A stretch of 64,000 nt of DNA from an uncultured Bacteroidales bacterium (GTDB lineage: Bacteria > Bacteroidota > Bacteroidia > Bacteroidales > Paludibacteraceae), in NCBI GenBank assembly GCA_900319035.1, contig ONMU01000005.1:1-64000 (forward strand), written 5' to 3'. Under the pieces are notes generated by a model that was given only the letters and a program-made list of their open reading frames with translations, was not told where the DNA came from and did no database searches. The position numbers and the translations under genes were made by a program. Below, piece by piece: positions 485-14,669 of this stretch; position 1 is the first letter of the stretch; each line of letters starts with the position of its first letter.

Positions 485-580
485 ATGGCTGATTTTTTCG
501 GTATGTTTTTCGGTAGTTTTTTCGGTAAAGGCGGGAAAAAGTTGAGGAATAGGCACAAAAAAAATATCGGAACTCCTTGA
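485..580 (+). CDS. candidate 31-aa hydrophobic/basic peptide
   Basis: A short open frame starts at ATG 485 and ends at TGA 578-580. The peptide begins MADFFGMFFGSFFGKGGKK and ends in a basic stretch (LRNRHKK). The N-terminal half is built from three 12-bp DNA repeats of the form TTTTTCGGTANN (about 493-528), which give the FFG periodicity. The stop lies inside the hairpin that terminates the convergent dnd operon, so the hairpin could serve both directions. There is no clear promoter or strong Shine-Dalgarno sequence. It may be a real small membrane-active peptide or only a translated simple repeat. Confidence 0.25.
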   Translation: MADFFGMFFGSFFGKGGKKLRNRHKKNIGTP

Positions 581-598
581 AAGATAAGGAATTCCGAT
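557..598 (-). terminator. intrinsic terminator of the dnd operon
   Basis: On the minus strand a 13-bp stem (ATCGGAATTCCTT paired with AAGGAGTTCCGAT, one G-T pair) with a 7-nt loop is followed by eight T residues. It lies about 55 bp after the stop codon of the last operon gene. Confidence 0.8.
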
Positions 599-624
599 AA
601 AAATGATAATTTTTGTATTTTTTT

Positions 625-653: not shown

Positions 654-2063
654 TTAGTCGTTGTTGACCTCTAATTGGAGGATGTCAAGGCACTCTTTGA
701 CGATGGGGAAATGCTTCGAACTCTCCTTGCTGCTGTTGAGACCAGAGATGTAAATTCCGTGTTCATCGACGAAATGCGATTCAAGGATAGTTGTGATACT
801 ATGGTTGTCGGGCACAACTATTTCGCCCTGATCGACCATCTTTTGGAAGAGGAAGAGCAACATGCCTTTACCTACTGCTCCGGTCCATGTTATTTTGGTA
901 CTGTTGGTCTTGCCGGAGAAGAGTTTGTAGAAGTCGTCTGGGAGTGTGTCTTTGGCGATCCAGCCGACTTGGATGAGTTTTTGACGGAGCATGTCGATAT
1001 GACCGACGGTTATACCACTCATTGTGAAGGTGATATAGGTGCGGTCTTGCTGGGCAGGCTCTTTTGGTCTGCGTTCTGTTTTACCGGCAGCTACATATTG
1101 CAAGTGTTTGTTGACCAATTGGAAACCATGAAGGTAGGCAAAGAATTGATGGAGACAAGGGACGGGGAAATCGTGGCGTTGTTCAAATAGATAACGAGCG
1201 ATTTTTATCTTTGTGGCATCTTTTGAGAGGTCACCAAACTCGTCTACGGTAACAATGATGCGAGCGGATTCTTCTGGATATTCGTCTTTGTGCTCGTTCA
1301 TAAAGTCTTTCACATCGTAGTTATTACAATGCTCTAACTTCTCATCAAGAATCTTTGAACGAATGAGGTCCTTGATCAGTTCATCTCGATATGCTTTAAG
1401 ATTATTTTCTTTCTTTTTTTGAGGTAGGTCGCTTTTATGGATATCAGCTATTTTCCCTTCAATTGGATGCCATGCAGGATAACAATTCTGGTCGATAGCA
1501 TAATAATATCTCAATAGTTGCGTGTCGGAAGGATTTCTTAACAGACGGTCAATATTGCGTAAAGTTGAGCGTAGTTGTTCAATTGCATAATATACCATTT
1601 CTCCATAACTCAGCACGCTTTCCTTATCGGAAGTTAACGCTAAGTATGGTTCGAGTACCTCTTGCCAATTACCACTGAACGAACTCTTGAATACGGCTTT
1701 TAGGTTCTTGTTAAATCCCTTTTTGACAAACTTTGCAATATCGCCCGCATAATTGCCGTTACCAAGATCTACAGGAATGTTATCTATACAGATGTTTTGC
1801 CTTGCGGACGAGATTAAATCAGCCCAAGTCTGGTATCCTGCCCATTCCGCAAAATTTATGTCTTCATCTGCATCTACTCCCCATGGCAAATCTTCTTGCC
1901 ACTTGGCATAGAGTTGTTCAAAAAGGCATTGAACATTAAGAATCTCCATAACGATAGCCACCCGAAACAGTTTATTGGATGTTCCGAATGACATATCGAA
2001 ATTTTTCAGCATGAGCTGAAGTTTATCTAGTGCTTCTCTATGTGTTGATATATACGTATCCAA
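654..2063 (-). CDS. dnd-operon protein, 469 aa, with RteC-like C-terminal domain
   Basis: Last gene of the dnd-led operon, 3 bp after the 164-aa gene. No enzymatic motif is visible. The first 340 residues are mostly helical and unrecognised. The final region (about 345-469) runs ITVGHIDMLRQKL, then KITWTG followed by a hydrophobic LLFLF segment and a closing HFPIVKECLDIL. That spacing resembles the C-terminal domain of RteC and related Bacteroidota proteins (W-T-G, hydrophobic helix, basic helix). RteC regulates excision of conjugative elements, but many proteins carry the domain without that role. Its place in the operon suggests it is a sensor or assembly subunit of the restriction module. 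Function is otherwise unknown; the RteC comparison is inference. Confidence 0.7.
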   Translation of the reverse strand: MDTYISTHREALDKLQLMLKNFDMSFGTSNKLFRVAIVMEILNVQCLFEQLYAKWQEDLPWGVDADEDINFAEWAGYQTWADLISSARQNICIDNIPVDLGNGNYAGDIAKFVKKGFNKNLKAVFKSSFSGNWQEVLEPYLALTSDKESVLSYGEMVYYAIEQLRSTLRNIDRLLRNPSDTQLLRYYYAIDQNCYPAWHPIEGKIADIHKSDLPQKKKENNLKAYRDELIKDLIRSKILDEKLEHCNNYDVKDFMNEHKDEYPEESARIIVTVDEFGDLSKDATKIKIARYLFEQRHDFPVPCLHQFFAYLHGFQLVNKHLQYVAAGKTERRPKEPAQQDRTYITFTMSGITVGHIDMLRQKLIQVGWIAKDTLPDDFYKLFSGKTNSTKITWTGAVGKGMLLFLFQKMVDQGEIVVPDNHSITTILESHFVDEHGIYISGLNSSKESSKHFPIVKECLDILQLEVNND

Positions 2064-2066
2064 GGT

Positions 2067-2561
2067 TTATTCCGCCGGTTGTAGTTCCATCAAAAGGTTC
2101 ATAAAGACATTTGGGTCTTCGAAAAGGTACTTTTCGTTATCGAACTTATCTTGCAGGTATGCCAATCCACGATTAGCATAGCCTTCCATTTCTTTTTGGA
2201 ATACTCTTAGGAATTGCTCGATTTCTTCATGCTTAGCACCATCTAAGTCCATCCAACTATAACCCATCTCGCTGGTGCGATTAAATAATGTAAGTAGAAT
2301 AAAGTCTTTTAATGGACCTGGTTTCCACATTCCAATTTGAGCAAAATCTCTACCTTTGTGTTCTGCCAGTTTCTTTTCTCCAATACGAAGACCTAATAGG
2401 AAGGCATACATATATGTTTGATAAAAGGCACCAAATGTAGACACGTTACCTTTACCTGTAGAATCTCCCTTCTGTGAAATTTTCTCCATTAAGGGATTAT
2501 ATTGCTCGTCGTACATGGGGCGTAAAGCATTTATACGCTCTCTAAATTGAACAGCATTCAT
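2067..2561 (-). CDS. dnd-operon protein of unknown function, 164 aa
   Basis: A soluble, mostly helical protein of 164 residues lying 6 bp after the Rad50-like ATPase gene and 3 bp before the 469-aa gene. It has no signal peptide and no motif that I recognise. A conserved-looking stretch is STFGAFYQTYMYAFLLGLRIG near residues 41-61. The tight spacing on both sides implies co-translation, so a partner role with the ATPase or the 469-aa protein is the most economical idea. Small dnd-associated proteins of unknown role are known from other phosphorothioation clusters, but I cannot assign it to one of those families by eye. Confidence 0.75.
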   Translation of the reverse strand: MNAVQFRERINALRPMYDEQYNPLMEKISQKGDSTGKGNVSTFGAFYQTYMYAFLLGLRIGEKKLAEHKGRDFAQIGMWKPGPLKDFILLTLFNRTSEMGYSWMDLDGAKHEEIEQFLRVFQKEMEGYANRGLAYLQDKFDNEKYLFEDPNVFMNLLMELQPAE

Positions 2562-2567
2562 AAGCGA

Positions 2568-4715
2568 TTATTTATATTCAGTGTAGCAACGTTTTTTAGT
2601 TTCGATATCAGAAGCGTCTGGTCGATCAGTATCAGTATAATTGACATAGAACATACCTTTGACTTCTCCATTATTCATTCTCTCAACAATCTTATCTCCA
2701 TCGTGTGTCAAGAGAGTCGGTCGACTCGGGTCACAAAGATCTTTGATCATAATGATGCTCTGTGTGAATACGGTCGGAGCTAATTTGAGGAAATTATTGA
2801 TAAAGTTGAAACTAAACTCGGAGAATGGTGCATCCGAGATAAAGGGATAGTCGAAATGTCTATTTGCCGATTTAGACGATATGATGGACATGACCAAAGC
2901 TAATTGTTTCATTCTTTGGAAACCAGTACCATTACCCGTTAATTCTTCTCCAGAAGCTGCTAATACGCGTACTTTGACAGTGCCATCTTCTAAGCGTTGG
3001 AAATCAAGAGTTCCTCCACTCGTTTGATTGCCTTCCGTCAGACGCGCATACATCTCGTTAGCCTCAATTTGAAGGTTATCAACAATCTTATTGAAGATAC
3101 GTTCTTTTGTCGCTTCAAATAGTTTCTGGATATTCGCTAATCTCTCTGCGAAATCCCTTGCCTTCTCCACCTCTGAGTTATCTTGCTTTTTGGCAATTTC
3201 TCGTACGCATTTCTCATATTGCAATGTCCAGATTTCAATGTTGCTTTTGTTGTATCGGATACTACCTTCGAGATCTGTGATTTTTTTATCAGCTTGGGTA
3301 TATTTGCTAAGTAGAATAGCGTCACTCTCAGCAGAATGTTCTCCCACTCCGTACATCATAAGTTCATTCTTTTTGGCATCTACCAAAGATCTTTGTGCTT
3401 CAATCCGGTCATTGAGCTCATCGAGGGCTTCCATAAAATTATTAAAGTCCTCATCTATCATAGCAATAGAACGCACGTAACTACCCGTATTTTTTTGCAA
3501 ATAGCCAAAGAAATCGGATATAGATGCCTGATCTTCATGTACAGGTTTTTGTGGTCGTTCCAAAATACGTTTGACGTGCGCATAAGCCTCTGGATCGTCT
3601 TTCAGAGAACGGCCACATACCTCGCAAACCATTGTTTCCAACATTCTCTTCAAAGAAGGCGCATCCGGGGAACCTTCTGGAAGTAAGATATCCGGATTGT
3701 TTCTAATTTCAGCATCCCTTTTAGTGTTGAGGTAGGCAATACGGTTTGCGTCGAATTGGTCAATCTCATCTTTCAGGCCATACAGTACCCACGGACAGTT
3801 TTCGTCGAATAGGCGAGATGTTACGGATAGTTCCTTTGCATCTCTTTCTTTCTCCATTCGTTTTAATTTCTCATTCTCATTTTCGTATTCAGTACGCAAC
3901 TTAGCTCGTTTCGTTGTATTGGAGATTTCTCGACCACATTCTTCCTTTATAGTTTTGGCTTCTGCAAGTTCTTTATACCAGGTCTTAATTTTTTCCTCGG
4001 CTTCGTCTATCCACTTCTTATATTTATCTCTTTCTGCTTGCTTATCAGCTAAGTCCGATCCAGCCTTTGTATTCTTGCGTTCAATGTCATTGGCTTCTTT
4101 AGCAGCCCGCCCTGCCAATTTGCTTGCCAATTCACACATTTCAATCACATTTCTAATATCAGCCAAATCATTAATAGTTTCTTCTAGTCCATCGTTAGAA
4201 GAAAGATTCACCAGACCCTCAATAGACTCGCCTTGAAGGAGAGCGTATTTATTAATTTCACTCGGAATTAACAAGCGGAGTGTTTGTTGTTTCTTTTCCA
4301 CATCGAGGATAGGCATGTCGCTATTATCAACAAGATGGTATACATCAAGAATAGGAATCGTTTTCCAACTGCCATCTTCTTTTGTAAAATGCACTCTTCT
4401 TTCAATGGTGTATTCAACATCATCGTTCACAAAGACAATTCTCACACCCATACTAAACTCATCGTTTTCACGACGTGCTTTTGCAGATGCCATTTTCTCG
4501 TAAGAATCTTTGGCCGTGTGGATTGTTCTGTCATCCGAATCGTACACTTGGTCATGTAACACCCATAGGAATCCATTATAGAACTTGGATTTACCCATGT
4601 TGTTATCAGCACTGATAATGTTTATGCCTTCTGTAAACCGATACAGGTTGTTCTCGTAACTTCCATAGTAGTTATAGAAGTTTTGAAAGGCCACTGATTT
4701 AATGATAGCTCCCAT
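2568..4715 (-). CDS. Rad50/SMC-like ATPase with CxxC motif in the coiled coil
   Basis: A 715-aa protein with the split ATPase head of the Rad50/SMC/RecF class. The Walker A region is SADNNMGKSKF (residues 35-45), where the usual first Gly is Ala. Long coiled coils follow (about 190-300 and 430-540). Between them lies CEVCGRSL (364-371), a CxxC that recalls the Rad50 zinc hook. The C-terminal head has a signature-like segment LTGNGTGFQRMKQLALVMSI (593-612) and a Walker B-like PFISDAPFSEF (624-634). DNA-end binding or loading of a nuclease is the family role. It sits between a 69-aa gene (4 bp upstream) and the 164-aa gene. DndD, in the same operon, is a second ATPase of this class, so the two halves of the operon each have an SMC-like engine. 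Confidence 0.8.
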   Translation of the reverse strand: MGAIIKSVAFQNFYNYYGSYENNLYRFTEGINIISADNNMGKSKFYNGFLWVLHDQVYDSDDRTIHTAKDSYEKMASAKARRENDEFSMGVRIVFVNDDVEYTIERRVHFTKEDGSWKTIPILDVYHLVDNSDMPILDVEKKQQTLRLLIPSEINKYALLQGESIEGLVNLSSNDGLEETINDLADIRNVIEMCELASKLAGRAAKEANDIERKNTKAGSDLADKQAERDKYKKWIDEAEEKIKTWYKELAEAKTIKEECGREISNTTKRAKLRTEYENENEKLKRMEKERDAKELSVTSRLFDENCPWVLYGLKDEIDQFDANRIAYLNTKRDAEIRNNPDILLPEGSPDAPSLKRMLETMVCEVCGRSLKDDPEAYAHVKRILERPQKPVHEDQASISDFFGYLQKNTGSYVRSIAMIDEDFNNFMEALDELNDRIEAQRSLVDAKKNELMMYGVGEHSAESDAILLSKYTQADKKITDLEGSIRYNKSNIEIWTLQYEKCVREIAKKQDNSEVEKARDFAERLANIQKLFEATKERIFNKIVDNLQIEANEMYARLTEGNQTSGGTLDFQRLEDGTVKVRVLAASGEELTGNGTGFQRMKQLALVMSIISSKSANRHFDYPFISDAPFSEFSFNFINNFLKLAPTVFTQSIIMIKDLCDPSRPTLLTHDGDKIVERMNNGEVKGMFYVNYTDTDRPDASDIETKKRCYTEYK

Positions 4716-4719
4716 GGTG

Positions 4720-4929
4720 TTAATCTTTTAATTTCAGAATGTTTTGGTATACACGCGCTTCACCCTTCTTATCTTCAACGCCACGAATGACATCTTTGAT
4801 TATTTCGATAGTAGGGTTTTCGGATTCCCCAATGTAGGTTTCCGTAGCTACTTCTTCTTTAGGAATGCCGAGGTGAGTTAGCAACTCATCTGATTCCATT
4901 AAGTTTCTGAATACTTCTTCTGCTTTCAT
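4720..4929 (-). CDS. small acidic protein of unknown function, 69 aa
   Basis: A 69-residue acidic protein starting MKAEEVFRNLMESDEL, with no membrane segment or known motif. It lies 9 bp after the helicase gene and 4 bp before the Rad50-like ATPase gene, in the same direction, so it is probably translated as part of the module. Its size and position suit an adaptor or regulatory subunit between the helicase and the ATPase. No function can be given. Confidence 0.7.
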   Translation of the reverse strand: MKAEEVFRNLMESDELLTHLGIPKEEVATETYIGESENPTIEIIKDVIRGVEDKKGEARVYQNILKLKD

Positions 4930-4938
4930 ATTTGCGGG

Positions 4939-7644
4939 TTATTTATTCTTCTCGTCTTCAATAAGGACTAGTCCATCTAAGTCGATTTCGTAAAAGCCGA
5001 TTAACTCTTGAAGTTGGTTAATAGCACCAGTGTAGTAATTGTCGGCAAGACATGCAAAGTTGGCTACACGTCTCATTTCTCCCATGACCAAACTCTTCTC
5101 CATAGCCCACCATTTTCGGTCATATTGCGGAGAACGGAAGTTGGGTGCTACAATCATATCATATATATAGGCGTATCGTTTAGCGGGATGTGTACGAAGT
5201 AGACGTCCACGCCGTTGCACGAATTGTCTTGGGTTGCCAGAACTGGATGTAAAAATTCCATATTCTGCACGCGGTACATCTACTCCTTCGTCCAAGCAGT
5301 TCTTAGCAAATAGTACATCGATCTGACCAGCGGCAAAAGCATCGAGTTTCTGCTTGCGTAATTCCTTAGAATCGTTGCTGGTATAAGAGTTACAACGAAC
5401 AGATGGGAATATCTGCTTGGTTATTGCAAGCATTTGTTTGAGAATCTCCAAGTCATATTGTTCATTCTCATCTTTTGCTTGATCGTAACGTTTTCCAGAT
5501 GCCGAATAAACGAAACAATACTTTAGTTTATCTTCTCCTATCTCACGAATGATATCTACAAAGGCATTCATCTTGTTACGAGCCTTGTGCAGGATATTCT
5601 TACGGAGCATAAGTAATTGTTGCGCTTGATCTGGGTCGGAGAAAGAACCAGTTGATTCGTTATACATTTGCAGCAGTTGCTTGGTATAGCGAGCGTATTT
5701 TGTCATTTCATCTTCATCAAGATATACCACACGAGGATGATAGAAATAATGCATCAAACGACCTATCTTAATAGCCTTGCTCATCGAGAAGCTGTAGGTA
5801 TATGGGAATGAGTCGTTGAAGAAGGTCTCTATTTCCTTGGTGCCTTCCTCGTCATATACGCGTTGAAGTGTAGCGGACAGTGCTATTCTTCTGTCAATGG
5901 TTAATCTACGGAATGCCTCACGCACGAGGTTCGCTCCGATATTGTGCGCTTCATCTGCTATCAATATTGCATTTTCAGAGATAGAAGGAAGGATTTGTTG
6001 GAAATCCCTCATAGCAAACGAAGTGTAGGTGGAAATAACTACGTAGTTGGCACTCTTTCCTCTTGCAATTTTACCTTTTAGTGCCAATAGTTTTGCTCGC
6101 CATTGGCTATTAGTAGAGGACACCTTAATGATATTTCGGAAATTGAAGTTGGATGCCTCTTCTTCCCATTGCTCTACCAAAGCGATTGAAGGAACTAAGA
6201 CAATGAGCCGATAGAAACCATCGTTGTAGTATTCCTCTAAAGCACAATTGAGAGAGGTTATTGTCTTACCAGTACCGGTCGCCATCGCGAACACGCCACG
6301 TTTCCCTCTGTCACACCATGCCTGATATGCATCTTTCTGATATTGGAATGCCCCAGGGAACTTAGATGGGAAATGCGGTTCTTCGATTACCTGTTGAGCC
6401 GCTGCGGTTTCCAATTCCTTAATTGCCTCGTATTCGTCTTCTACAATCTCGTCAATCGTCTCCGTGTTATAACGAGTGACTATCTTTTTACAGAATTGCT
6501 TTGCGTCATAGATAATCACATCGCTGTTGGAACCATCCCAAACGGTTTCGAAATCATGATGATAGGTAGCAATGCGTTGCTTATTTTCTTCGTTATGCCA
6601 CGAGCAGATGCAATCAATGGATTCTATATTGCGTGTCAGCCCAGAAGCGGTCATGTTCATGGAACCATTGAATACAACTTCGTCACCCTTAGTGTCGGTG
6701 AATATGCCAAATTTCTCATGTGCAATACCACCTTCTTTGAGTACTGCGATACGAATTTCTATGCGTTCCTGCTGGATGAGATATGCCAAGCAGCGGAAGA
6801 ATAATTCGTCACGCTTGGATAGGATATTGAATAACTCGTCGTACGATTCAAGCAATCGCTGTTCAAAATCTTCGGGACGGTTTGCTTTAAGGAGCGCGTA
6901 ATCATCTTCTGTCAGGTTCGGATTGATATACATGCGCATGTTTCCTCCATTCTTGATAAAATGGGAGAAACCACAAGCCAACACGTTGAATGATGCACTA
7001 CTGAAATAGCCAAGTCCTAAATCAAGGTGGGAACTATTAGATAGTGCTTTCGTGAAGAAATCTGCCGGTTGGTGGTCACGTTTCGTAGAATATCGTAGTT
7101 CGTACGTTTGTGATTGCAAATCTGTTGGAACAATAGGATATGAACGAATGATGGCTTCCGGATATGTTATACTATTTAGTCCAAAACGGTCACCAGGAAA
7201 ACGACAGATGTTGGCGTCGCTATTTAGAGATGTACGTAGACTATTATCAGTCGCGATTGGCCTTGATCTGCGAGCGTTGACATAGTCTCGAATCGCTTCC
7301 AAAGCCATCGGAGCGTACGATTTCTCTAAGCATTCTTTATACAAGAACCGAATCGGAATATCCGTTTCTTTCGGCCTTGTCTTTTCAATTGGCGGGAATA
7401 GTACATAGTTTTCAGGATCCATACACACTTCATAACGCTGGAAAATCTCCATGTTCAGAATGGCAATGATATCCGGAATATATGTCGGTTGAAAATCGCC
7501 CCACAAATCCAAATCTTCCGCAATGAACTTACGCAGATTGATACACACTTCCTTTTTAGAAGACGTACAAAGCCTTCTAATCTTCTCATGGAATAAATCG
7601 AATTTGAATATTCCGTTATATGTATCTCTGCTTAGTTCGGGCAT
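4939..7644 (-). CDS. PLD-nuclease/SF2 DEAH helicase fusion, dnd-linked restriction candidate
   Basis: A 901-aa protein with two recognisable parts. At 309-332 a single phospholipase-D-type motif is present (HEKFGIF, a following Asp, then NGSMNMT), the catalytic pattern of PLD-superfamily nucleases, which usually work as dimers. A superfamily-2 helicase core follows: Walker A ATGTGKT (455-461), DEAH (564-567), SAT (589-591) and the motif VI region QRRGRLLR (810-817). The first 160 residues are unrecognised. The gene overlaps dndE by 13 bp, tying it to the modification genes. The natural reading is a translocase/nuclease that acts on DNA lacking phosphorothioates. I recall SF2-helicase proteins annotated as phosphorothioation-system restriction enzymes, but membership is untested. 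The tie to restriction is inference from context. Confidence 0.85.
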   Translation of the reverse strand: MPELSRDTYNGIFKFDLFHEKIRRLCTSSKKEVCINLRKFIAEDLDLWGDFQPTYIPDIIAILNMEIFQRYEVCMDPENYVLFPPIEKTRPKETDIPIRFLYKECLEKSYAPMALEAIRDYVNARRSRPIATDNSLRTSLNSDANICRFPGDRFGLNSITYPEAIIRSYPIVPTDLQSQTYELRYSTKRDHQPADFFTKALSNSSHLDLGLGYFSSASFNVLACGFSHFIKNGGNMRMYINPNLTEDDYALLKANRPEDFEQRLLESYDELFNILSKRDELFFRCLAYLIQQERIEIRIAVLKEGGIAHEKFGIFTDTKGDEVVFNGSMNMTASGLTRNIESIDCICSWHNEENKQRIATYHHDFETVWDGSNSDVIIYDAKQFCKKIVTRYNTETIDEIVEDEYEAIKELETAAAQQVIEEPHFPSKFPGAFQYQKDAYQAWCDRGKRGVFAMATGTGKTITSLNCALEEYYNDGFYRLIVLVPSIALVEQWEEEASNFNFRNIIKVSSTNSQWRAKLLALKGKIARGKSANYVVISTYTSFAMRDFQQILPSISENAILIADEAHNIGANLVREAFRRLTIDRRIALSATLQRVYDEEGTKEIETFFNDSFPYTYSFSMSKAIKIGRLMHYFYHPRVVYLDEDEMTKYARYTKQLLQMYNESTGSFSDPDQAQQLLMLRKNILHKARNKMNAFVDIIREIGEDKLKYCFVYSASGKRYDQAKDENEQYDLEILKQMLAITKQIFPSVRCNSYTSNDSKELRKQKLDAFAAGQIDVLFAKNCLDEGVDVPRAEYGIFTSSSGNPRQFVQRRGRLLRTHPAKRYAYIYDMIVAPNFRSPQYDRKWWAMEKSLVMGEMRRVANFACLADNYYTGAINQLQELIGFYEIDLDGLVLIEDEKNK

Positions 7645-8033
7645 ATTTCTACTAATCCTTCGTTTATTCTATCAAACAAATAGTCGAAACCAACTAAGTT
7701 GGGGTTGTTTTTAACGTCGTTGGCAATGCGTTCAAGACCATCGTCCAAGTGCATTTTGAAGTAACGCGCCATGTCCTTGTCGTTCTCAGAGATGCCGTAG
7801 TACGTACACATTAAGGCAGTATAGAGGAAATCGTTTCCTCCGAAAAGTACGGCACGTGAGTATTCTTTTCCTCCAGAATCTTTTGCGTCCATTGGGTTGA
7901 ACTTCACACCGGACTTTAGGGAATAAGCGATTGCGATACGAGCAATCACGTTCTCTGCTCCAAGATTAAACTTGCGAGTCAAGTCAACTACTATTTCGCG
8001 ATTCTTTGCGCTTGTCTTAATTTGTGAAAACAT
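7632..8033 (-). CDS. dndE: DNA sulfur modification protein DndE
   Basis: A 133-aa protein directly after dndD (11 bp) and overlapping the helicase gene by 13 bp. It has the compact helical character and length expected for DndE, including the ENVIARIAIAYSL segment near residues 27-39. DndE works with DndC and DndD in putting sulfur into the DNA backbone; work on the family describes binding to nicked DNA. The identification rests on size, sequence character and the dndC-dndD-dndE order, which is the standard one. Confidence 0.85.
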   Translation of the reverse strand: MFSQIKTSAKNREIVVDLTRKFNLGAENVIARIAIAYSLKSGVKFNPMDAKDSGGKEYSRAVLFGGNDFLYTALMCTYYGISENDKDMARYFKMHLDDGLERIANDVKNNPNLVGFDYLFDRINEGLVEICPN

Positions 8034-8044
8034 ATCTCGTTCGT

Positions 8045-10159
8045 TTAATCGTTCATTAACTTATCCACAGGTACTTGTTTGAAGTACGAGTGATCCACTT
8101 CATTCTTAATCAGGTATGCGCTCTGAACCAGCGGCATCATGATTCCAAGTTCATCTTCTGTCAACTCTTTGTGCAGCAGAGGGAATAGTACCACCTGCTT
8201 CGAGATAGAAGGATAGAACTCTGTGATGATTTTACTGGAATGGCTTTTATCGAACTTCTGCAACGGGCTGTCGATGAATACCGGGAACTCAATGCCGGAT
8301 TCTTCAACGAGTGCTTTGAGGAGCGAAGTCGCGTACAATTGTTGCTCACCCTTGGAGAGTGTTTCCTTGCGGATAACTTTGCCGGTGGGTGTATAGAGCA
8401 CGATATCGAGACCGTCTTCCTGTACGTCCACTGCTACATTGCCAATGAAGTCCTCTTTGTGCATGAGGGCATTCATGATACCTTTGAGACGACGCTCCAG
8501 CGATATCTTCTTCTCTGTTTTGAGATTGCGCAGGAAGGAGTCAAGGCTGCCAATAAGTTCATTGGCAAGTGCATCTTTCTTGACATCGCTATCATCAAGA
8601 CTCACTTTCTTGCTTAACTCGGAAATCTGTTTCTTGCAGATGTTGAGGTCTTGCGAGATAGAGCCGTGACGAACGTACAAACCGCGAATCTCTTCTTCGA
8701 GTTTCTTGATCTGCATTTCTATGCCGGACTTCTCTGCACGTATCTGCTTAATGATTTCGTCGGATTCGTTGGCTTGCATGGACGCAAGTTTCTGCTGAAC
8801 TCGACTCATCGTTTGTTTGTTCTTCTTGTTGTCGTCTGCCAAGTGCTCAAACTCCACACGATAAGTGGTCGTGAGGTTGGAGAAGATGGATTGGCTTTCG
8901 TTGTACTCGTCACGATTGACGCTAAGCAATGGTTCGTGCGTTATCTCTTCTTCTTTGAAGCTGTCGAGCACTCTGTGAACGGCTGCTTGCATCTTTGTGC
9001 CGTTTGTACCGGCAAGCGGGACGAGTTCTCCGACCAACTTGTCGTAGATCTCTTTCAGTAAACCATTCTGGTTGGCTATGTTTTGCGCGGCTTTGGCTGC
9101 GTTATAGTCCTTTCTGATTTCCTCCATCGTTTGCGTCAAGAGGTCACCGGCGATAGCAAACGGAGCAAACTCAATGAATCCACGGAGTTTCTCTTTGATG
9201 ATGGCATCGTTCTCGCGTGTCTTTTGCAACACTGCCTTCTGACGCTCGTACTCATCCATTGTCATTCCCTGACCTTCTCGAAGCAGTTTCTCTTGATACT
9301 CTTTGTCTTTCTGACGGAGAGCGGACAGGGTTTCATCTTTGCTTGCTATAGTGTCTTCAACCGCTTGCAAATCGGCTTGGAGTTTCTCGCTCTTATCGAG
9401 AAGTGCATTCAGTTTGTTTCGGCTCTCGATATCGGATGTACGCTTACGGAACTTAAGACGGAGGGCTTCCAGATTGTGCTTCAAGTCCTCGTATTTCTTC
9501 ACACCAAGCACCTCGTTGTATGCAGAAGCCAATCGGCGTCTATCTTCTGCAGTGTTGGTCTCCGCAAGTGCAACTATGCGCTCTGAGTCAAAGAAGAAGA
9601 AACGTGCGATGTCTTTGTTGAGAATGAAATCGTTAATGAAGACATCGTTGCCGATTGATTGCGCCAACTCGTTCTTCTGATTATCAATGAGCACTTCGAT
9701 ATTGTCGCTTTGCTTAATGAAATCGAACGAGCGAATGATGGTAATCTTCTGACACGGAATAGACGGAATCGATATGTCTGTAAAAGTTATTGCAATGGAA
9801 TAGACCGCGTTGGCTTGGATGTCCTCGTCTTCCGGAGTGTAGCCGGAGCGTTTGATGCGCGTAAGCGTGTCTGCTCCAATGGATTCGACGTACTGCTTGG
9901 CGTTGTTATTGAGGTTGCTGATAAGGAATGGTCCGTAGCCACCGCAATTGCTAATTTCCTTGCGTGCAGTATCGTCTATCTCAGCCATTAAGCGTCCATA
10001 CAAGCACCACAAAAGCGAATGCAAGAATGTGGTCTTGCCGAAGCCGTTTTCTCCGGAGATCAAATAGATGTTCCGACCCTCAGCATCCTGCGGGAAGGAA
10101 ATCTTATTGACGCCTCGGTATAGACGGAAATTAGTCAGTGTTATATCTTGTATGCGCAT
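8045..10159 (-). CDS. dndD: DNA sulfur modification protein DndD (SMC-like ATPase)
   Basis: A 704-aa ATPase that begins MRIQDITLTNFRLYRG, the usual N-terminus of DndD/RecF-type proteins. Walker A is GENGFGKTT (36-44). A long coiled-coil region fills about 200-560. The C-terminal head carries the signature LSKGEQQLYATSLLKAL and a Walker B-like FPVFIDSPLQKFD. DndD supplies ATP-dependent DNA remodelling or nicking during phosphorothioation together with DndC and DndE. The start follows the dndC stop by a single base, so translation is coupled. No CxxC hook is evident, unlike the second ATPase further down the operon. Base composition here looks somewhat more GC-rich than in the genes downstream of dndE, which could mean that the two halves have different histories. 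Confidence 0.9.
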   Translation of the reverse strand: MRIQDITLTNFRLYRGVNKISFPQDAEGRNIYLISGENGFGKTTFLHSLLWCLYGRLMAEIDDTARKEISNCGGYGPFLISNLNNNAKQYVESIGADTLTRIKRSGYTPEDEDIQANAVYSIAITFTDISIPSIPCQKITIIRSFDFIKQSDNIEVLIDNQKNELAQSIGNDVFINDFILNKDIARFFFFDSERIVALAETNTAEDRRRLASAYNEVLGVKKYEDLKHNLEALRLKFRKRTSDIESRNKLNALLDKSEKLQADLQAVEDTIASKDETLSALRQKDKEYQEKLLREGQGMTMDEYERQKAVLQKTRENDAIIKEKLRGFIEFAPFAIAGDLLTQTMEEIRKDYNAAKAAQNIANQNGLLKEIYDKLVGELVPLAGTNGTKMQAAVHRVLDSFKEEEITHEPLLSVNRDEYNESQSIFSNLTTTYRVEFEHLADDNKKNKQTMSRVQQKLASMQANESDEIIKQIRAEKSGIEMQIKKLEEEIRGLYVRHGSISQDLNICKKQISELSKKVSLDDSDVKKDALANELIGSLDSFLRNLKTEKKISLERRLKGIMNALMHKEDFIGNVAVDVQEDGLDIVLYTPTGKVIRKETLSKGEQQLYATSLLKALVEESGIEFPVFIDSPLQKFDKSHSSKIITEFYPSISKQVVLFPLLHKELTEDELGIMMPLVQSAYLIKNEVDHSYFKQVPVDKLMND

Positions 10160-10160
10160 G

Positions 10161-11495
10161 TTATTGCTCTTTTATGAAGGCATCAATACGAGCCTCTAAG
10201 TCATTTTGTAAACCTTGCTTTTTCATCAGCAGTACTTTGTTCTTTTGGAGTGCAAGGAGCTCTTGAATCAGTTTATAATGATCTTGCTTTTCTCCGCAGG
10301 CTTTCTCCAATAAAATACGTTCTTGCAGGCTGATATTATCGTTTGGTATATCGTAGCCGTAAACTTCATTATAGATGTCGTTTACTGTTGTTTCGAAATT
10401 ACCATCACGATACCAAATGATTTGGATAGCGATGAGTTCCTGACTGGAGATAAGGTTGATGCTGGAACGATATTGTTGTGTGTCACGTTGAATCTGGAGT
10501 AATTCTCGGAGCATTTGAATACGATACTCCATGGTATAGTTGCCCAAGTTGTGTCCGTTCTCATCAACAGCCGCTTGACCATTGCGACGAGTAGCGCAGC
10601 GAAGTTCTGACACATTGCGATTATCCGACAAACGATTACGGAACTCCAACAGCGGTTTCATCCATTCAATGCCATTCTTAATGAGTGAAGTCATGGATTT
10701 ATCTTCCTTAACAACAGTGCAAATCCAACAACCGAAACGGCTCTGCCCACATGAGCGGTGCGAATCGTCTGTGACAACTGTCGGGCACTCATAGTCATCT
10801 GCGGAAGCGTCCGCATAGATTTTGAAAAGGATTTGATTATCGAATCCCCATGGAGAAGGAATGGCATTAATAATCCACCAAACTTCTTCCAGCATCAGCG
10901 ACTTGATAGGCGCGTAGGTGAAAGTGTTGGCGTTTAGCGGGTGCTTGGAAAGACGGTGACCTTTGATCTCGTGGCGTTTGATAGAAAGCGAACGGCGTTG
11001 GCTCTCATCGTAACGAGTTCCCACCAACACAATAGCTTCTCCGTCGGCAGCAACTTGTGAAGTGATAAATGCCGAAGTCGGTTTTATCTTCATTTTCTCC
11101 GTACAGAAACGGAAGGAGTTGTTAGGAACCGGATAGCCCTTACCGATTACGCACGACCAGAACGTATCTTCCAATGCCGGAGTGGTTACTTTGACGGTTA
11201 CCGGCAGACCTTGCTCCTTTGCTGCATTGGAGATCATGTCTAGAACACCAGTAACGTATTCCTCAATAACAGGATTCTCCACCAAAGTATCGTTGTTCAC
11301 AACGTACACTTGGCGAGTCAATGGCGTTCCTTTCTCTTTAAGCCGTTGCAAAGCAAGCCATGTCAGAGTAAGAAGGACGGTAGAATCTTTACCGCCACTG
11401 AAACCAATAATCCAAGGACGATTGTAACGGTCATCCTCCATATATTGATCCATCAACTCCTCAATGATTTCTTCTATATTTTGTGGTATTTTCAT
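10161..11495 (-). CDS. dndC: DNA phosphorothioation sulfurtransferase DndC
   Basis: A 444-aa PAPS-reductase-like protein. The PP-loop SGGKDS lies at residues 33-38. Four cysteines typical of DndC are present: Cys237 (ECPT) and the cluster CGQSRFGCWIC (249-259), expected to hold a [4Fe-4S] centre. The FCTEKMK segment near residue 131 also fits. DndC activates the DNA backbone with ATP and delivers the sulfur. I chose the ATG at 11495 (MKIPQN) over the in-frame ATG at 11540 because the promoter's TAnnTTTG element is at 11558-11551 and would place the longer start at or before the transcription start. It is the first gene of the eight-gene operon. No dndA cysteine desulfurase is adjacent, so sulfur must come from a housekeeping enzyme or a gene outside the window. 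Confidence 0.9.
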   Translation of the reverse strand: MKIPQNIEEIIEELMDQYMEDDRYNRPWIIGFSGGKDSTVLLTLTWLALQRLKEKGTPLTRQVYVVNNDTLVENPVIEEYVTGVLDMISNAAKEQGLPVTVKVTTPALEDTFWSCVIGKGYPVPNNSFRFCTEKMKIKPTSAFITSQVAADGEAIVLVGTRYDESQRRSLSIKRHEIKGHRLSKHPLNANTFTYAPIKSLMLEEVWWIINAIPSPWGFDNQILFKIYADASADDYECPTVVTDDSHRSCGQSRFGCWICTVVKEDKSMTSLIKNGIEWMKPLLEFRNRLSDNRNVSELRCATRRNGQAAVDENGHNLGNYTMEYRIQMLRELLQIQRDTQQYRSSINLISSQELIAIQIIWYRDGNFETTVNDIYNEVYGYDIPNDNISLQERILLEKACGEKQDHYKLIQELLALQKNKVLLMKKQGLQNDLEARIDAFIKEQ

Positions 11496-11550: not shown

Positions 11551-11582
11551 CAAAGATACTAAAATTTTCTGAGATATGCAAA
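11551..11582 (-). promoter_or_regulatory. dnd operon promoter
   Basis: On the minus strand TTTG (11582-11579), 20 nt, then TATCTTTG (11558-11551), matching the Bacteroidota TTTG/TAnnTTTG promoter form. It is the only such element upstream of dndC. Confidence 0.75.
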
Positions 11583-11620
11583 TAATTCCTAAAATATTGC
11601 AAAAATAATTGAGAATGGAC

Positions 11621-11810
11621 GCTGACTAATAGTCAGCACAAAAGAAGAATCTATTGATAGATGGGACTCTGACTAATAGTCAAAGTAATGGAAGAATCTT
11701 TTTGGGGATGGAACTTTGACTGATAGTCAAAGCAAAAGAAGAATCTATTGAAGGGATGAAACTCAGACTAATAGTCAGAGCAATGGAAGAATCTATTAAG
11801 GGAGGGTTGG
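11621..11810. repeat. tandem array of palindromes, 47-48 bp period (REP-like)
   Basis: Four units begin at GACT positions 11624, 11671, 11718 and 11766 (spacings 47, 47, 48). Each has a palindrome around GACTANTAGTC followed by a conserved GAAGAATCT about 15 bp later. Unit 1 (GCTGACTAATAGTCAGC) and unit 3 (CTTTGACTGATAGTCAAAG) have perfect arms with different bases, so the arms covary. Units 2 and 4 have one arm mismatch each. Units alternate: 1 and 3 carry AAAAGAAGAATC, 2 and 4 carry AATGGAAGAATC. A degenerate fifth partial unit reaches the stop codon of the HUH transposase gene. The array therefore lies directly 3' of that gene and ahead of the dnd promoter. Confidence 0.85.
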
Positions 11811-11816
11811 AAGAAG

Positions 11817-12836
11817 CTATTGGGCGCAGATATCTTCGGCCACGGCGTTGAGGGCGATGCAGTCGGCACGGGAGACGTGCTTGTGAGATGGGTCATAGGG
11901 CCACGGAGAGAGGATGAGAAGGCGATCGTTGGCAACGGCATCGAAGAGGAGCGCGGAGGGTTTATAGTAGTCCTTAAAGCCATTTTCAGCGAGGTAGATG
12001 ATCGGGCGTTTCTCTTGGAGGAGGGTACGGAGGATATCTTTCTCCCATGATGAGATGAAGGGCGAGACCATGACGGAGCCTTGGCGGGCAGCATCGTAGC
12101 ATGAGGCGATATAGTCATTGAGGGGTTGTGGGTTGCCAAGGCGGGCTGCTTCGGTCATGGTGTGGCGCACATGGACAGGGGTGCGTTGGGCGATGTGCAA
12201 GAGGCGCGAAGAGCCAATAGCTGCATAGACGCGGCCGTTGATCTCGACACGGGGCTGGACGCGGAAGAAGCCGGGCTTAAGGCGCTTGGTAGCGAGGCGC
12301 TGGGGGTTCATGTCGAGGTAGTCGATAGTAGCAGGGAGTTGAGAGTTATGCCCCATGGGTTGGATATGCGGCATTTGAGTGAAGATGGGATCGAGGGCAT
12401 AATAAGCATCGTTGCCAATTTGATCGCAGAGAGATTCTTGATAGTTATGCCGACTACTAGTCGGTACAAAAGAAGAATCATCATAAGAATATGCGCGACC
12501 GAGCTTCTTGGCACCCACCCAAAAGCCAGAGACAACCTCCCGGATACTCCGCGTAAGCGGGCGCTTCACGTACCAGATAAAATGAAGATGATCCGGCATC
12601 AGCGCGTAATGAAGCATCTGGATATCAGGCTGATACTTGGATATATCCCATAGGAGATTGGTGAGCGTACGACCGAAAGGGGAGACATCTACGCGAGCCT
12701 GAGCGGGGTCGTTATTAGGGATGACAAGGGTGCCGAGGAGAGGCTGGCGGGATGTGACCGTCAACGTGATATGATATAGACCGACGCCACGCCAAGCTGT
12801 GCCAGGCTCTTGCCATTGCCATTTGTTATGATCCAT
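11817..12836 (-). CDS. RAYT-type HUH (Y1/IS200-like) transposase
   Basis: A 339-aa protein related to REP-associated tyrosine transposases. The core HUH motif is LMPDHLHFIWYV, with His83 and His85 coordinating the metal. The N-terminal GVGLYHITLTV strand and the following segment match the Y1-transposase fold. It is longer than typical RAYTs (about 150-220 aa); the extra C-terminal region (about 160-339) is unrecognised. The catalytic tyrosine cannot be fixed by eye; Tyr132 is a candidate. A copy of the adjacent palindromic repeat lies inside the gene in frame (12444-12480) and encodes residues of about 120-131. I took ATG 12836 as start because the -7 element at 12862-12855 overlaps the longer TTG-initiated frame. 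RAYTs normally process REP palindromes, and the array at the 3' end of this gene is the obvious substrate. Confidence 0.8.
   Translation of the reverse strand: MDHNKWQWQEPGTAWRGVGLYHITLTVTSRQPLLGTLVIPNNDPAQARVDVSPFGRTLTNLLWDISKYQPDIQMLHYALMPDHLHFIWYVKRPLTRSIREVVSGFWVGAKKLGRAYSYDDSSFVPTSSRHNYQESLCDQIGNDAYYALDPIFTQMPHIQPMGHNSQLPATIDYLDMNPQRLATKRLKPGFFRVQPRVEINGRVYAAIGSSRLLHIAQRTPVHVRHTMTEAARLGNPQPLNDYIASCYDAARQGSVMVSPFISSWEKDILRTLLQEKRPIIYLAENGFKDYYKPSALLFDAVANDRLLILSPWPYDPSHKHVSRADCIALNAVAEDICAQ
12444..12480. repeat. copy of the palindromic repeat inside the HUH transposase gene
   Basis: The palindrome CCGACTACTAGTCGG (12450-12464) is followed by TACAAAAGAAGAATCA, the same tail as array units 1 and 3. 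It keeps the reading frame and encodes part of DSSFVPTSSRHN. Confidence 0.8.
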
Positions 12837-12854
12837 AGTCTGAAATTTTGCGTG

Positions 12855-12885
12855 CAAAGGTACTAAAATTTTCTGATATATGCAA
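12855..12885 (-). promoter_or_regulatory. promoter of the HUH transposase gene
   Basis: TTG (12885-12883), 20 nt, TACCTTTG (12862-12855) on the minus strand. The spacer is nearly identical to those of the dndC and AlbA_2 promoters. The implied leader before ATG 12836 is only about 12 nt. Confidence 0.7.
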
Positions 12886-12970: not shown

Positions 12971-14632
12971 TTATTGGATATTCAGTGATTGTGGATCGGT
13001 AATGTAGTCCGGTGTTTTCAGTAACGATTGGCTCAATTCCGTCAGTTGATAAGTTTGAGTAGGACTGCTAAGAGACTCTGCCATCGCGGGAGCAATAAAT
13101 CCTTCCCTAATAAGCGGAGTAACAATATTTTTACGAACTCGACTTCTGTTACTATCGCCCACGAGTTTCATAAGAGCTTGCATAGACATAGCTCCATCTG
13201 CGAGAGCCAAAATCATAGTTAGCGCTTTACCTTGGTAGGTGTCAGTCATCGTCGGTATAGCCAAAGATAATCGTAGTGAAATTCGAGATAAATCGGGTAA
13301 TTTACCTGGGACATTACCTGGGACATTACCTGGGACATTACTTGGGACATTACCTGGGACATTCAGCTCATTTGACACCATCTTTACATGGAATTGTCCC
13401 ATCATCATGGACAATGTTGTTTCTTCCGGATGAACGGATTCTTGTATAGTGGGTTGTTCCCATCCATAGGACATCCAGCCCTTAACAATGATGTCCGCTC
13501 CACTGCCGGCATGTTCGCCATATCCCAACAAAGCAAACATATTCTGGATCAACGGATTTCGGCACGTGCTGTGGCTCCCGGCGTAGAAATCTTCCACAGA
13601 GACAAGCATTCGTCCCGGGTTCCTCATGATGAAACCGTTGCTGATTCGCTTAATAAGTATATTGCCTTGAATAGCATAATTACAATGTACCAAAGTATTA
13701 ACCAAAGCTTCACGCAGAGCCACATGTGCAGAGGTGTCATCAATGCGCTCTATTCCCTTGAGTGCGAACTTTGTAGGAAGCGATTGGGCTGCTTGCGTAT
13801 ATACGCGATGGAAGAACTGATACAAATTCGGCTCCCATGTGCTATCTGGATATATGCGATCTGTCCATCTTTGCGAAGCGCCATCTCCGAGCCATTCTTG
13901 ATAATCAGGGAAATACCATGGTGCACAATAACGGTCTGTGATACTTGCATATTTACCGAACATCAGTATTCCTGCACGTGTGAAACCTTCTTCTTTAGTG
14001 TTCCGGTCGCTACAATACGCTTTTATCTTCATCAAGAAAGCCATGTCATCAATTTCGTTCCAAGGATGAGTCGGTTTGCGAAGTGAGAATCGTTGGCGAT
14101 ACGCTCGTACAGAAGCGATATCAATATCATTCATTGTGAAGTTCGGCAAAATGTCGGCGTCGTGCGGGTGTTGCAATGCTTGCGCGTCGGCAAACATAAT
14201 GCGCACCTCTTCGTCAGAACAAAGGTAGTCTCCCTCATTGTTCCGGATATATGTGTTGCCGAAGGGATTGTGATTCAAAAAAACAGGGCGATCTGTAAAT
14301 TGAGCACGTGGAACGTTAATAATGAGGATGGGCGAGCCTTGCCAATGCTCGATAGTAACATCGTTTTCGGTGACGAGGGTTGCGCTGACTTTGGCACGAT
14401 TATGGACAATATCCCAGAAGTTCTTCTTATAGGCGAGTAGTTGGTCTTCGGTAAGGTTATCGGAGGTCAGGTGACCATTCTTCTCCTTGATTCCGAGCAC
14501 GATAATACCACCGTTCGAGTTGGCGAAGGATGAGTAGGTTTCCCATAGGCTTGCAGGTAGTCCGCCTTTGGCAGACTTGTACTCAATGACTGCATTTTCC
14601 GGCAATCCGATAAGTTGTTTGATATTGTCCAT
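12971..14632 (-). CDS. AlbA_2 (Schlafen-type) DNA-binding / GHKL-like regulator
   Basis: A 553-aa protein with the layout often annotated as a putative RecG-like helicase or transcriptional regulator, although it has no helicase motifs. Residues 1-130 form the AlbA_2 domain (IEYKSAKGGLP, SFANSNGGIIVLGI). An ATP-binding GHKL-like region follows (REALVNTLVHCNY, RNPGRML, GYGEHAGSGADI). A linker of NVPG repeats comes next, and the C-terminus looks like a winged helix. Such proteins occur in defence islands and mobile elements and may bind DNA or nucleic acid ends. The start is ATG 14632 (MDNIKQ) because the promoter -7 element lies at 14677-14670, upstream of it and too close to the alternative start at 14659. 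It is a single-gene unit. Confidence 0.8.
   Translation of the reverse strand: MDNIKQLIGLPENAVIEYKSAKGGLPASLWETYSSFANSNGGIIVLGIKEKNGHLTSDNLTEDQLLAYKKNFWDIVHNRAKVSATLVTENDVTIEHWQGSPILIINVPRAQFTDRPVFLNHNPFGNTYIRNNEGDYLCSDEEVRIMFADAQALQHPHDADILPNFTMNDIDIASVRAYRQRFSLRKPTHPWNEIDDMAFLMKIKAYCSDRNTKEEGFTRAGILMFGKYASITDRYCAPWYFPDYQEWLGDGASQRWTDRIYPDSTWEPNLYQFFHRVYTQAAQSLPTKFALKGIERIDDTSAHVALREALVNTLVHCNYAIQGNILIKRISNGFIMRNPGRMLVSVEDFYAGSHSTCRNPLIQNMFALLGYGEHAGSGADIIVKGWMSYGWEQPTIQESVHPEETTLSMMMGQFHVKMVSNELNVPGNVPSNVPGNVPGNVPGKLPDLSRISLRLSLAIPTMTDTYQGKALTMILALADGAMSMQALMKLVGDSNRSRVRKNIVTPLIREGFIAPAMAESLSSPTQTYQLTELSQSLLKTPDYITDPQSLNIQ
13302..13361 (-). repeat. 12-bp tandem repeat encoding the NVPG linker
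   Basis: Five consecutive units of TTACCTGGGACA (plus-strand reading; the fourth has one C-to-T change) encode NVPG/NVPS repeats in the AlbA_2 protein. The copy number is in frame, so slippage would lengthen or shorten the linker without breaking the gene. Confidence 0.9.
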
Positions 14633-14669
14633 TGTCGTTTCTGTTATCGCGTGACACACAAAAAGTGTG

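Follow-up and report, generated by a model that had tools for sequence, protein, structure and literature searches.

The first 64,000 nucleotides of contig ONMU01000005.1 (GenBank assembly GCA_900319035.1, forward strand), a stretch from an uncultured Bacteroidales bacterium hereafter called the window, hold the phosphorothioation genes dndC, dndD and dndE, which run without a break into five further genes. This raises the question of which partner module accompanies the sulfur-marking genes, and what the last gene of the run, here called X, brings to it. An earlier note on this DNA had proposed that the five genes form a distinct effector; we find that the operon is, with a probability of about 0.72, a DndCDE-PbeABCD defence set (predicted sulfur marking, with unmarked phage DNA blocked) joined by X as a likely swappable accessory gene. 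The system itself is known and new to neither bacteria nor Archaea; the additions are a fusion between PbeA and part of a second gene, Y, and the modular X. The eight genes, all on the minus strand and with zero internal stops, are the following (aa, amino acids).

10161-11495, minus strand: dndC, 444 aa
8045-10159, minus strand: dndD, 704 aa
7632-8033, minus strand: dndE, 133 aa
4939-7644, minus strand: pbeA (PLD/SF2), 901 aa
4720-4929, minus strand: pbeB, 69 aa
2568-4715, minus strand: pbeC (ATPase), 715 aa
2067-2561, minus strand: pbeD, 164 aa
654-2063, minus strand: X, the last gene, 469 aa

The intergenic gaps from dndC to X measure 1, 11, −13, 9, 4, 6 and 3 base pairs (bp), and both the unbroken eight-gene run and the gaps that the earlier note had given match the coordinates exactly. 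X starts with TTG, and a close homologue (P0004) begins at X residue 18, which leaves a small doubt on the start codon.

The sulfur-marking genes were identified by family profiles and motifs. DndC scored 414 bits with TIGR03183 (cut-off 290) and contains the PP-loop motif SGGKDS. DndD matched TIGR03185 over residues 1-685 (E 5.8e-64; 217 bits, below the cut-off of 246) and was hit by both the PbeC and the DndD models of PADLOC, the PbeC model ranking first; it has the Walker A motif GENGFGKT and no CxC or CxxC zinc hook. DndE reached 86 bits with PF08870 (cut-off 25) and 55 bits with TIGR03184, below the cut-off of 72. No cysteine desulfurase is encoded within the operon. The organism's own genome has eight PF00266 matches, the three named ones being a SufS above cut-off (TIGR01979, 505 bits), a partial SufS just below it and a phosphoserine transaminase, and on these family matches a cysteine desulfurase is predicted to be available from elsewhere in the genome.

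For three of the five genes after dndE, namely pbeA, pbeC and pbeD, identity comes from sequence or structure; PbeB was assigned by its size and position. PbeA matched the PADLOC PbeA model at 763 bits over residues 185-882, lay above the Pfam cut-offs for PF13091, PF04851 and PF00271, and carries the motifs H309xK, GTGKT, DEAH and QRRGRLLR of an HKD nuclease-like and SF2 helicase protein. PbeB had no family match in the Pfam, TIGR or PADLOC models; its place and its 69 aa fit (67 aa in locus L002, 63 aa in L003), and homologues occupy the same place in the named Bacteroidota loci, the assignment being made by size and place and not by archaeal PbeB sequence. PbeC matched its PADLOC model at E 1.6e-29 and has a CEVC zinc hook, of the CxxC type, at residue 364; a CxxC hook is likewise present in the five other Bacteroidota PbeCs inspected (L006, L007, L011, L014 and L023), and a CxC hook in those of L002, L003 and L005.

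PbeD is a DndE-fold protein, identified by structure and profile. In a plain Foldseek search its model placed the DndE structure 4lrv at rank 2 with an E-value of only 2.6, and in a second look with VIA three DndE structures ranked at the top. Recognition of PbeD as DndE from sequence alone was rejected, the DndE profile giving zero matches and the PDB search by sequence nothing credible. A scan of viral contigs with PbeD returned 60 stretches, none of them confirmed.

The order dndCDE-pbeABCD in one run is the published order. DndFGH and SspE were rejected as partners: among the listed matches of the eight operon proteins at E<=1 (the best 25 for DndD and for PbeA) there is no DndF, DndG, DndH or SspE model, as the earlier note had also maintained, this negative covering those eight proteins, since a genome-wide TIGR03237 scan was silent along with its controls. 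That note's suspicion of kinship with PbeABCD was borne out by orthologues in the published order and by PbeB and PbeD sizes near those of Haloterrigena jeotgali. Its claim of a distinct five-gene effector gave way, the orthology lying with PbeABCD and only X and the PbeA fusion being additions; a categorically new effector was rejected on the PADLOC matches of PbeA and PbeC, the structure of PbeD and the published order and sizes. Nor is PbeABCD, which had been called an archaeal module, confined to Archaea, for PMC6459918 already records it in bacteria.

How closely the cassette is tied to dnd genes was judged from two samples. A PbeD-based search gave 24 named loci, which were chosen by similarity to the window PbeD and are biased towards window-like loci; a draw of 393 Bacteroidales genomes is less biased. 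Dnd genes adjoin pbe in 18 of the 19 named loci with a readable flank, the contigs of the other five (L008, L015, L020, L021 and L022) ending before the dnd side; in L002-L005 our own DndD profile also caught PbeCs, and the labels there come from gene order and annotation. In the exception, L029, PbeD is shortened and neither Pbe nor Dnd neighbours were recognised within 17.6 kb; its reading frame (9020-9322) lacks the middle of PbeD, residues 1-51 being joined to 114-163, and is a relic. The contig of L016 is filed under a Methanobrevibacter metagenome-assembled genome, yet its PbeA groups with Bacteroidales, probably through a binning error or transfer.

PbeD-type matches were found in 13 of the 393 Bacteroidales genomes, the window's own included. 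dndCDE is adjacent in two (the own genome and L056) and ssp in three; neither was recognised in two (L061 and L065, by our own profiles and inspection of the open reading frame (ORF) list, not by a family scan), and six were not judgeable (L057, L058, L062 and L066 end before the flank, L063 has a short PbeC piece without PbeA, and L067 amounts to a 95-aa fragment with no Pbe genes around it). With dndCDE adjacent in two of the 13, the cassette as a whole occurs as often away from dndCDE as beside it, a pattern that the earlier note had regarded as telling against its distinct effector.

The ssp genes stand beside pbeA, pbeC and pbeD in three of the 12 other Bacteroidales PbeD-type genomes. 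In L059, sspB, sspC, sspD and an SspA/DndA-type desulfurase adjoin the pbe genes; L060 has sspB, sspC and sspD there, its PbeC being split in two pieces; and in L064 sspC and sspD adjoin pbe, a gap of 7 bp separating the end of sspD from pbeA, which has the same orientation. Profiles did not pick out PbeB in any of the three. PbeABCD may work with either kind of sulfur marking, and some of the so-called solitary Pbe cassettes could have such ssp genes as their sulfur-marking partner, an issue that the 2019 text had not settled. The arrangement was not found in the literature searched, whose coverage excluded most subscription journals and all preprints; one paper, in its accessible part, merely lists Pbe and Ssp systems side by side.

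The first addition concerns the front of PbeA. In 12 named loci (L011, L014-L019 and L023-L027) the gene Y lies just 5' of pbeA, its product 730-870 aa long (715 aa in L015, where the contig end cuts it), and dndE was seen before it in 11 of them. The three Bacteroidota Y proteins scanned (L016, L011 and L023) gave matches resembling the C-terminal domain (CTD) of RNA polymerase alpha and, in two, matches resembling sigma-70 region 4, some of these matches falling below cut-offs; a 1026-aa protein before pbeA on a Ruegeria plasmid has the same kinds of match and scores 47 bits with the Y profile. Y is missing from the window and six relatives, in which PbeA carries 181-208 residues ahead of the conserved ELRYS motif. 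This extension, roughly 180 residues long, shows homology to the C-terminal region of Y (E 5.3e-15 and score 112 in hhalign, with no more than 19.9 in 20 column-shuffled controls), and all seven fused PbeAs fall in a single clade (support 100/100) within a group that holds eight Y-bearing loci under midpoint rooting. Judged from these comparisons, the extension is a gene fusion of the C-terminal part of Y. The fusion suggests, and does not prove, that the Y and PbeA products meet, and it points to a likely physical partner of PbeA. Neither the fusion nor X was in any paper found in the same literature.

The second addition is X, modelled as a helical N-domain (residues 1-325), a low-confidence linker (about 326-337) and an alpha/beta C-domain (338-469). 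The label RteC-like, given to it at first sight, did not hold: no Pfam family was matched at E<=1 and profile-based sequence searches of the PDB gave nothing credible, on which membership in RteC (PF09357) was rejected; the RteC family itself had one match in 31 genomes. Some of the 44 homologues of X share both domains, some the N-domain only (P0011-P0017 and others) and some the C-domain only, these last up to 98.5% identical (P0018). The C-termini of 29 rows, C-domain-only homologues left out, fell into six groups of 14, 9, 3, 1, 1 and 1, of which the nine short ones may partly cohere through the end of the N-domain. The N-domain is constant while the C-terminus varies. A scan of genome contigs with the single 469-aa protein gave 21 stretches, none confirmed; phage and plasmid records yielded zero matches to X, and PHROGs nothing under E 0.05. 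In BFVD the X model matched best to A0A8S5R9Q9, a protein of a podovirus that is itself uncharacterised, at E 0.007 and a probability of 0.98 but with a low TM-score.

Relatives of the X N-domain directly follow pbeD, at 3-21 bp, in the window and in L006, L007, L009 and L010, all four of which belong to the fused-PbeA clade. Starting from a distant homologue that spans the full protein and comes from the same genus, a search of 300 genomes of this family, the query's own among them, added two more, and an order-wide search with the three found no further genome. All three lie directly behind hsdR in hsdM-hsdS-hsdR operons (L068; L072, with a short hsdM; and L073, with an extra gene between hsdS and hsdR), and the two N-domain groups match by profile (E 2.1e-8, probability 95, 290 columns). 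X follows a restriction operon in all eight loci with readable context (five dnd-pbe and three hsd); the hsd loci are the independent part of this count, because X had no freedom of place in the others: the window was the starting point, and the four further dnd-pbe loci came out of the PbeD search. The HsdR of L073 matches a Dnd restriction helicase model at E 1.5e-5, and the PbeA and HsdR motors are, by sequence, related. X thus probably serves restriction machines as a swappable accessory, shared between unlike defences. If X touches HsdR, its role would be testable in a tractable system, that of the type I enzymes, which are far better understood, and then carried back to Pbe.

What X might carry is suggested by its unfused relatives. 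In L006, L007 and L010, X closes with a short tail whose sequence reappears where a downstream gene begins; of 995 ORF starts compared, the best match was the downstream gene of the own locus in three of the four unfused-X loci (scores 75, 74 and 60), unrelated ORFs scoring at most 42. In L006 a Fic/Bro-N gene lies between X and the tail-matched gene, and the latter carries the very C-domain that X bears in the window, where fusion takes the place of the tail form. The matching looks like tag-and-partner docking, of which amyloid-type signalling would be one possible form; in bacterial amyloid signalling, motifs match between adjacent genes. At 1018-1962 of L034, the tail motif closes a 108-aa gene, and the next gene has a matching motif and an X-type C-domain; no Pbe gene was seen by eye in that 3.4-kb stretch, so tail pairing appears to be more general.

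One might go further and see X as a universal plug-in, its N-domain docking on the SF2 subunit (PbeA or HsdR) and its C-terminal socket taking payloads, fused or held by tails, so that the second weapon changes and the core does not. We put this forward tentatively and would not be surprised to see it fail.

Several observations weigh against the reading of the operon as a DndCDE-PbeABCD set with X as a working accessory. The TIGR03185, TIGR03184 and TIGR04095 scores all lie below cut-off, and phosphorothioation and mark-dependent virus exclusion are predicted from gene identities. The fold of X, compared as a whole-protein model, has no clear match in solved structures (PDB). X occurred in one of 395 genomes of a phylum sample, the window's own, and in two of the 393 Bacteroidales genomes, the own one and a weak match that was set aside (G207, E 4e-4, in an ORF of radical-SAM type by eye). 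The tail of L009 reached 43 at best, with an own-locus ORF, not above unrelated matches elsewhere. The hsdR-X gaps span 133-235 bp, so that co-transcription there is only putative, and X is dispensable, since L012 and L013 share the fused PbeA yet lack it. Where X would stand, both have a gene run (10510-13759 in L012, 10502-13785 in L013) that opens with a GHKL-ATPase-like protein, by eye, and is perhaps another defence system.

Such rarity, together with the absence of X from most DndCDE-PbeABCD loci, the fused-PbeA L012 and L013 among them, and the occurrence of its C-domain on proteins with unrelated N-termini, would suit a plain DndCDE-PbeABCD locus in which X is a passenger, a mobile or regulatory Bacteroidales gene caught inside the transcription unit and without a defence role. 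A passenger would not be expected behind a restriction operon wherever the context can be read, dnd-pbe and hsd alike, nor so close to pbeD with its N-domain kept while the C-terminus changes, and we consider this account possible and rather doubtful. X could also be a sensor: phage proteins would trigger its C-terminal module, which would launch an abortive response once the main system is inhibited. The accessible text of PMC10853773 proposes a back-up role for nucleases at the edges of Dnd loci. In L009 a YhcG-type PDDEXK nuclease comes after X, and in L006 the Fic/Bro-N protein does, and the pairing of tails with downstream genes resembles the motif matching of amyloid signalling, but X has no recognisable nuclease or toxin family (Pfam, TIGR, PADLOC, PHROGs) and amyloid formation by the tails is only putative, which makes this reading improbable. 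Finally, X as an immunity or brake protein that shields the host chromosome from the PbeA or HsdR motor in the absence of marks, its C-domain a DNA-binding reader, would fit its last place after the motor and effector genes in both restriction types and a mixed helix/strand C-domain compatible by appearance with a winged helix, but is unlikely, a brake seeming unnecessary because archaeal pbeABCD without marks was not toxic (PMC6459918, as far as its accessible part goes) and the exchange of C-termini being more in keeping with an effector or recruiter than with an unchanging brake.

For the DndCDE-PbeABCD set with X as accessory, we infer from gene content, homologies, the fusion and the gene contexts a scheme of modification, exclusion, docking and payload. 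DndC, a desulfurase from elsewhere and the DndD-DndE scanner would, as in their families, place phosphorothioates at a short host motif. PbeC and PbeD, which sequence and model show to be another scanner pair built in this way, a zinc-hook ATPase plus a DndE-fold protein, would survey DNA for sulfur-free sites. PbeA, in which an HKD nuclease-like domain is joined to an SF2 motor, would be loaded at these sites, where it has been proposed in the literature to stall or cut invading DNA, with PbeB proposed to keep it in check. How PbeABCD stops viruses is unsettled in the accessible texts, with no viral DNA cleavage reported in PMC6459918 and cleavage by the HKD domain argued for in PMC10853773. 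Homology and the tree indicate that part of the DNA-binding-type Y was fused to the front of PbeA, which would place Y and PbeA in one complex. The anatomy of X suggests that its constant N-domain would be the docking part for the restriction machine and its C-terminus would supply a changeable second function, fused or recruited by a short matching tail.

The transcription signals of the operon are these.

11551-11582, minus strand: promoter-like element TTTG-N20-TATCTTTG, 55 bp upstream of the dndC ATG
565-599, minus strand: intrinsic terminator, a 14-pair stem followed by T8, 54 bp past the last stop

The element TTTG-N20-TATCTTTG, which we take to be the Bacteroidota -33/-7 promoter type, has 11 matches in the window against 0.57 expected, and the dndC-proximal one is the only minus-strand match below position 12000; a scan for sigma-70-type promoters found 24 against 24.3 expected, the chance level. 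The single promoter and single terminator of the earlier note stand, with the Bacteroidota-type element before dndC and the 14-pair stem after the last gene. Beyond the operon, at 11608-11803 and 11817-12857, a set of four 47-bp repeats of variable sequence, with a CTGACTATTAGTCAG-type palindrome, lies just 3' of an ORF that resembles, by eye, a REP-associated (Y1-type) transposase and that had zero Pfam matches at E<=0.01. A 12-bp tandem repeat of 5.2 copies (13302-13363) encodes GNVP-type repeats within ORF 12971-14659.

Set against known systems, the module shares with DndFGH and SspE its role as a partner module of phosphorothioation and differs in gene content, their models being absent from the listed matches noted above. 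The type I hsdM-hsdS-hsdR operons are alike in having a distant X homologue directly 3' of an SF2-type restriction subunit, and differ in having a DNA methyltransferase in place of the sulfur genes, a gap of 133-235 bp before that homologue and no Pbe genes. Closer are the CxC ABC-ATPase/DndE systems of Rakesh, Aravind and Krishnan (2024; PMC10853773), reported to stand in tandem in 936 bacterial taxa, in which an HKD-SF2 protein, a small protein, a zinc-hook ATPase and a DndE cognate likewise stand beside a DndD-DndE set; the accessible part of that paper does not describe X or the Y-PbeA fusion, and its single mention of a sigma factor concerns DndH. Closest is the DndCDEA-PbeABCD system of H. 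jeotgali A29 (Xiong et al. 2019; PMC6459918), compared here from the accessible text. The window differs from it in lacking dndA in the operon, in the N-terminal extension of PbeA, in a CxxC rather than a CxC hook and in the extra gene X, and agrees with it in the order dndC-D-E then pbeA-B-C-D without dndB, in the PLD, ResIII and helicase C domains of PbeA, and in the sizes of PbeB (66 aa there, 69 aa here) and PbeD (152 aa there, 164 aa here).

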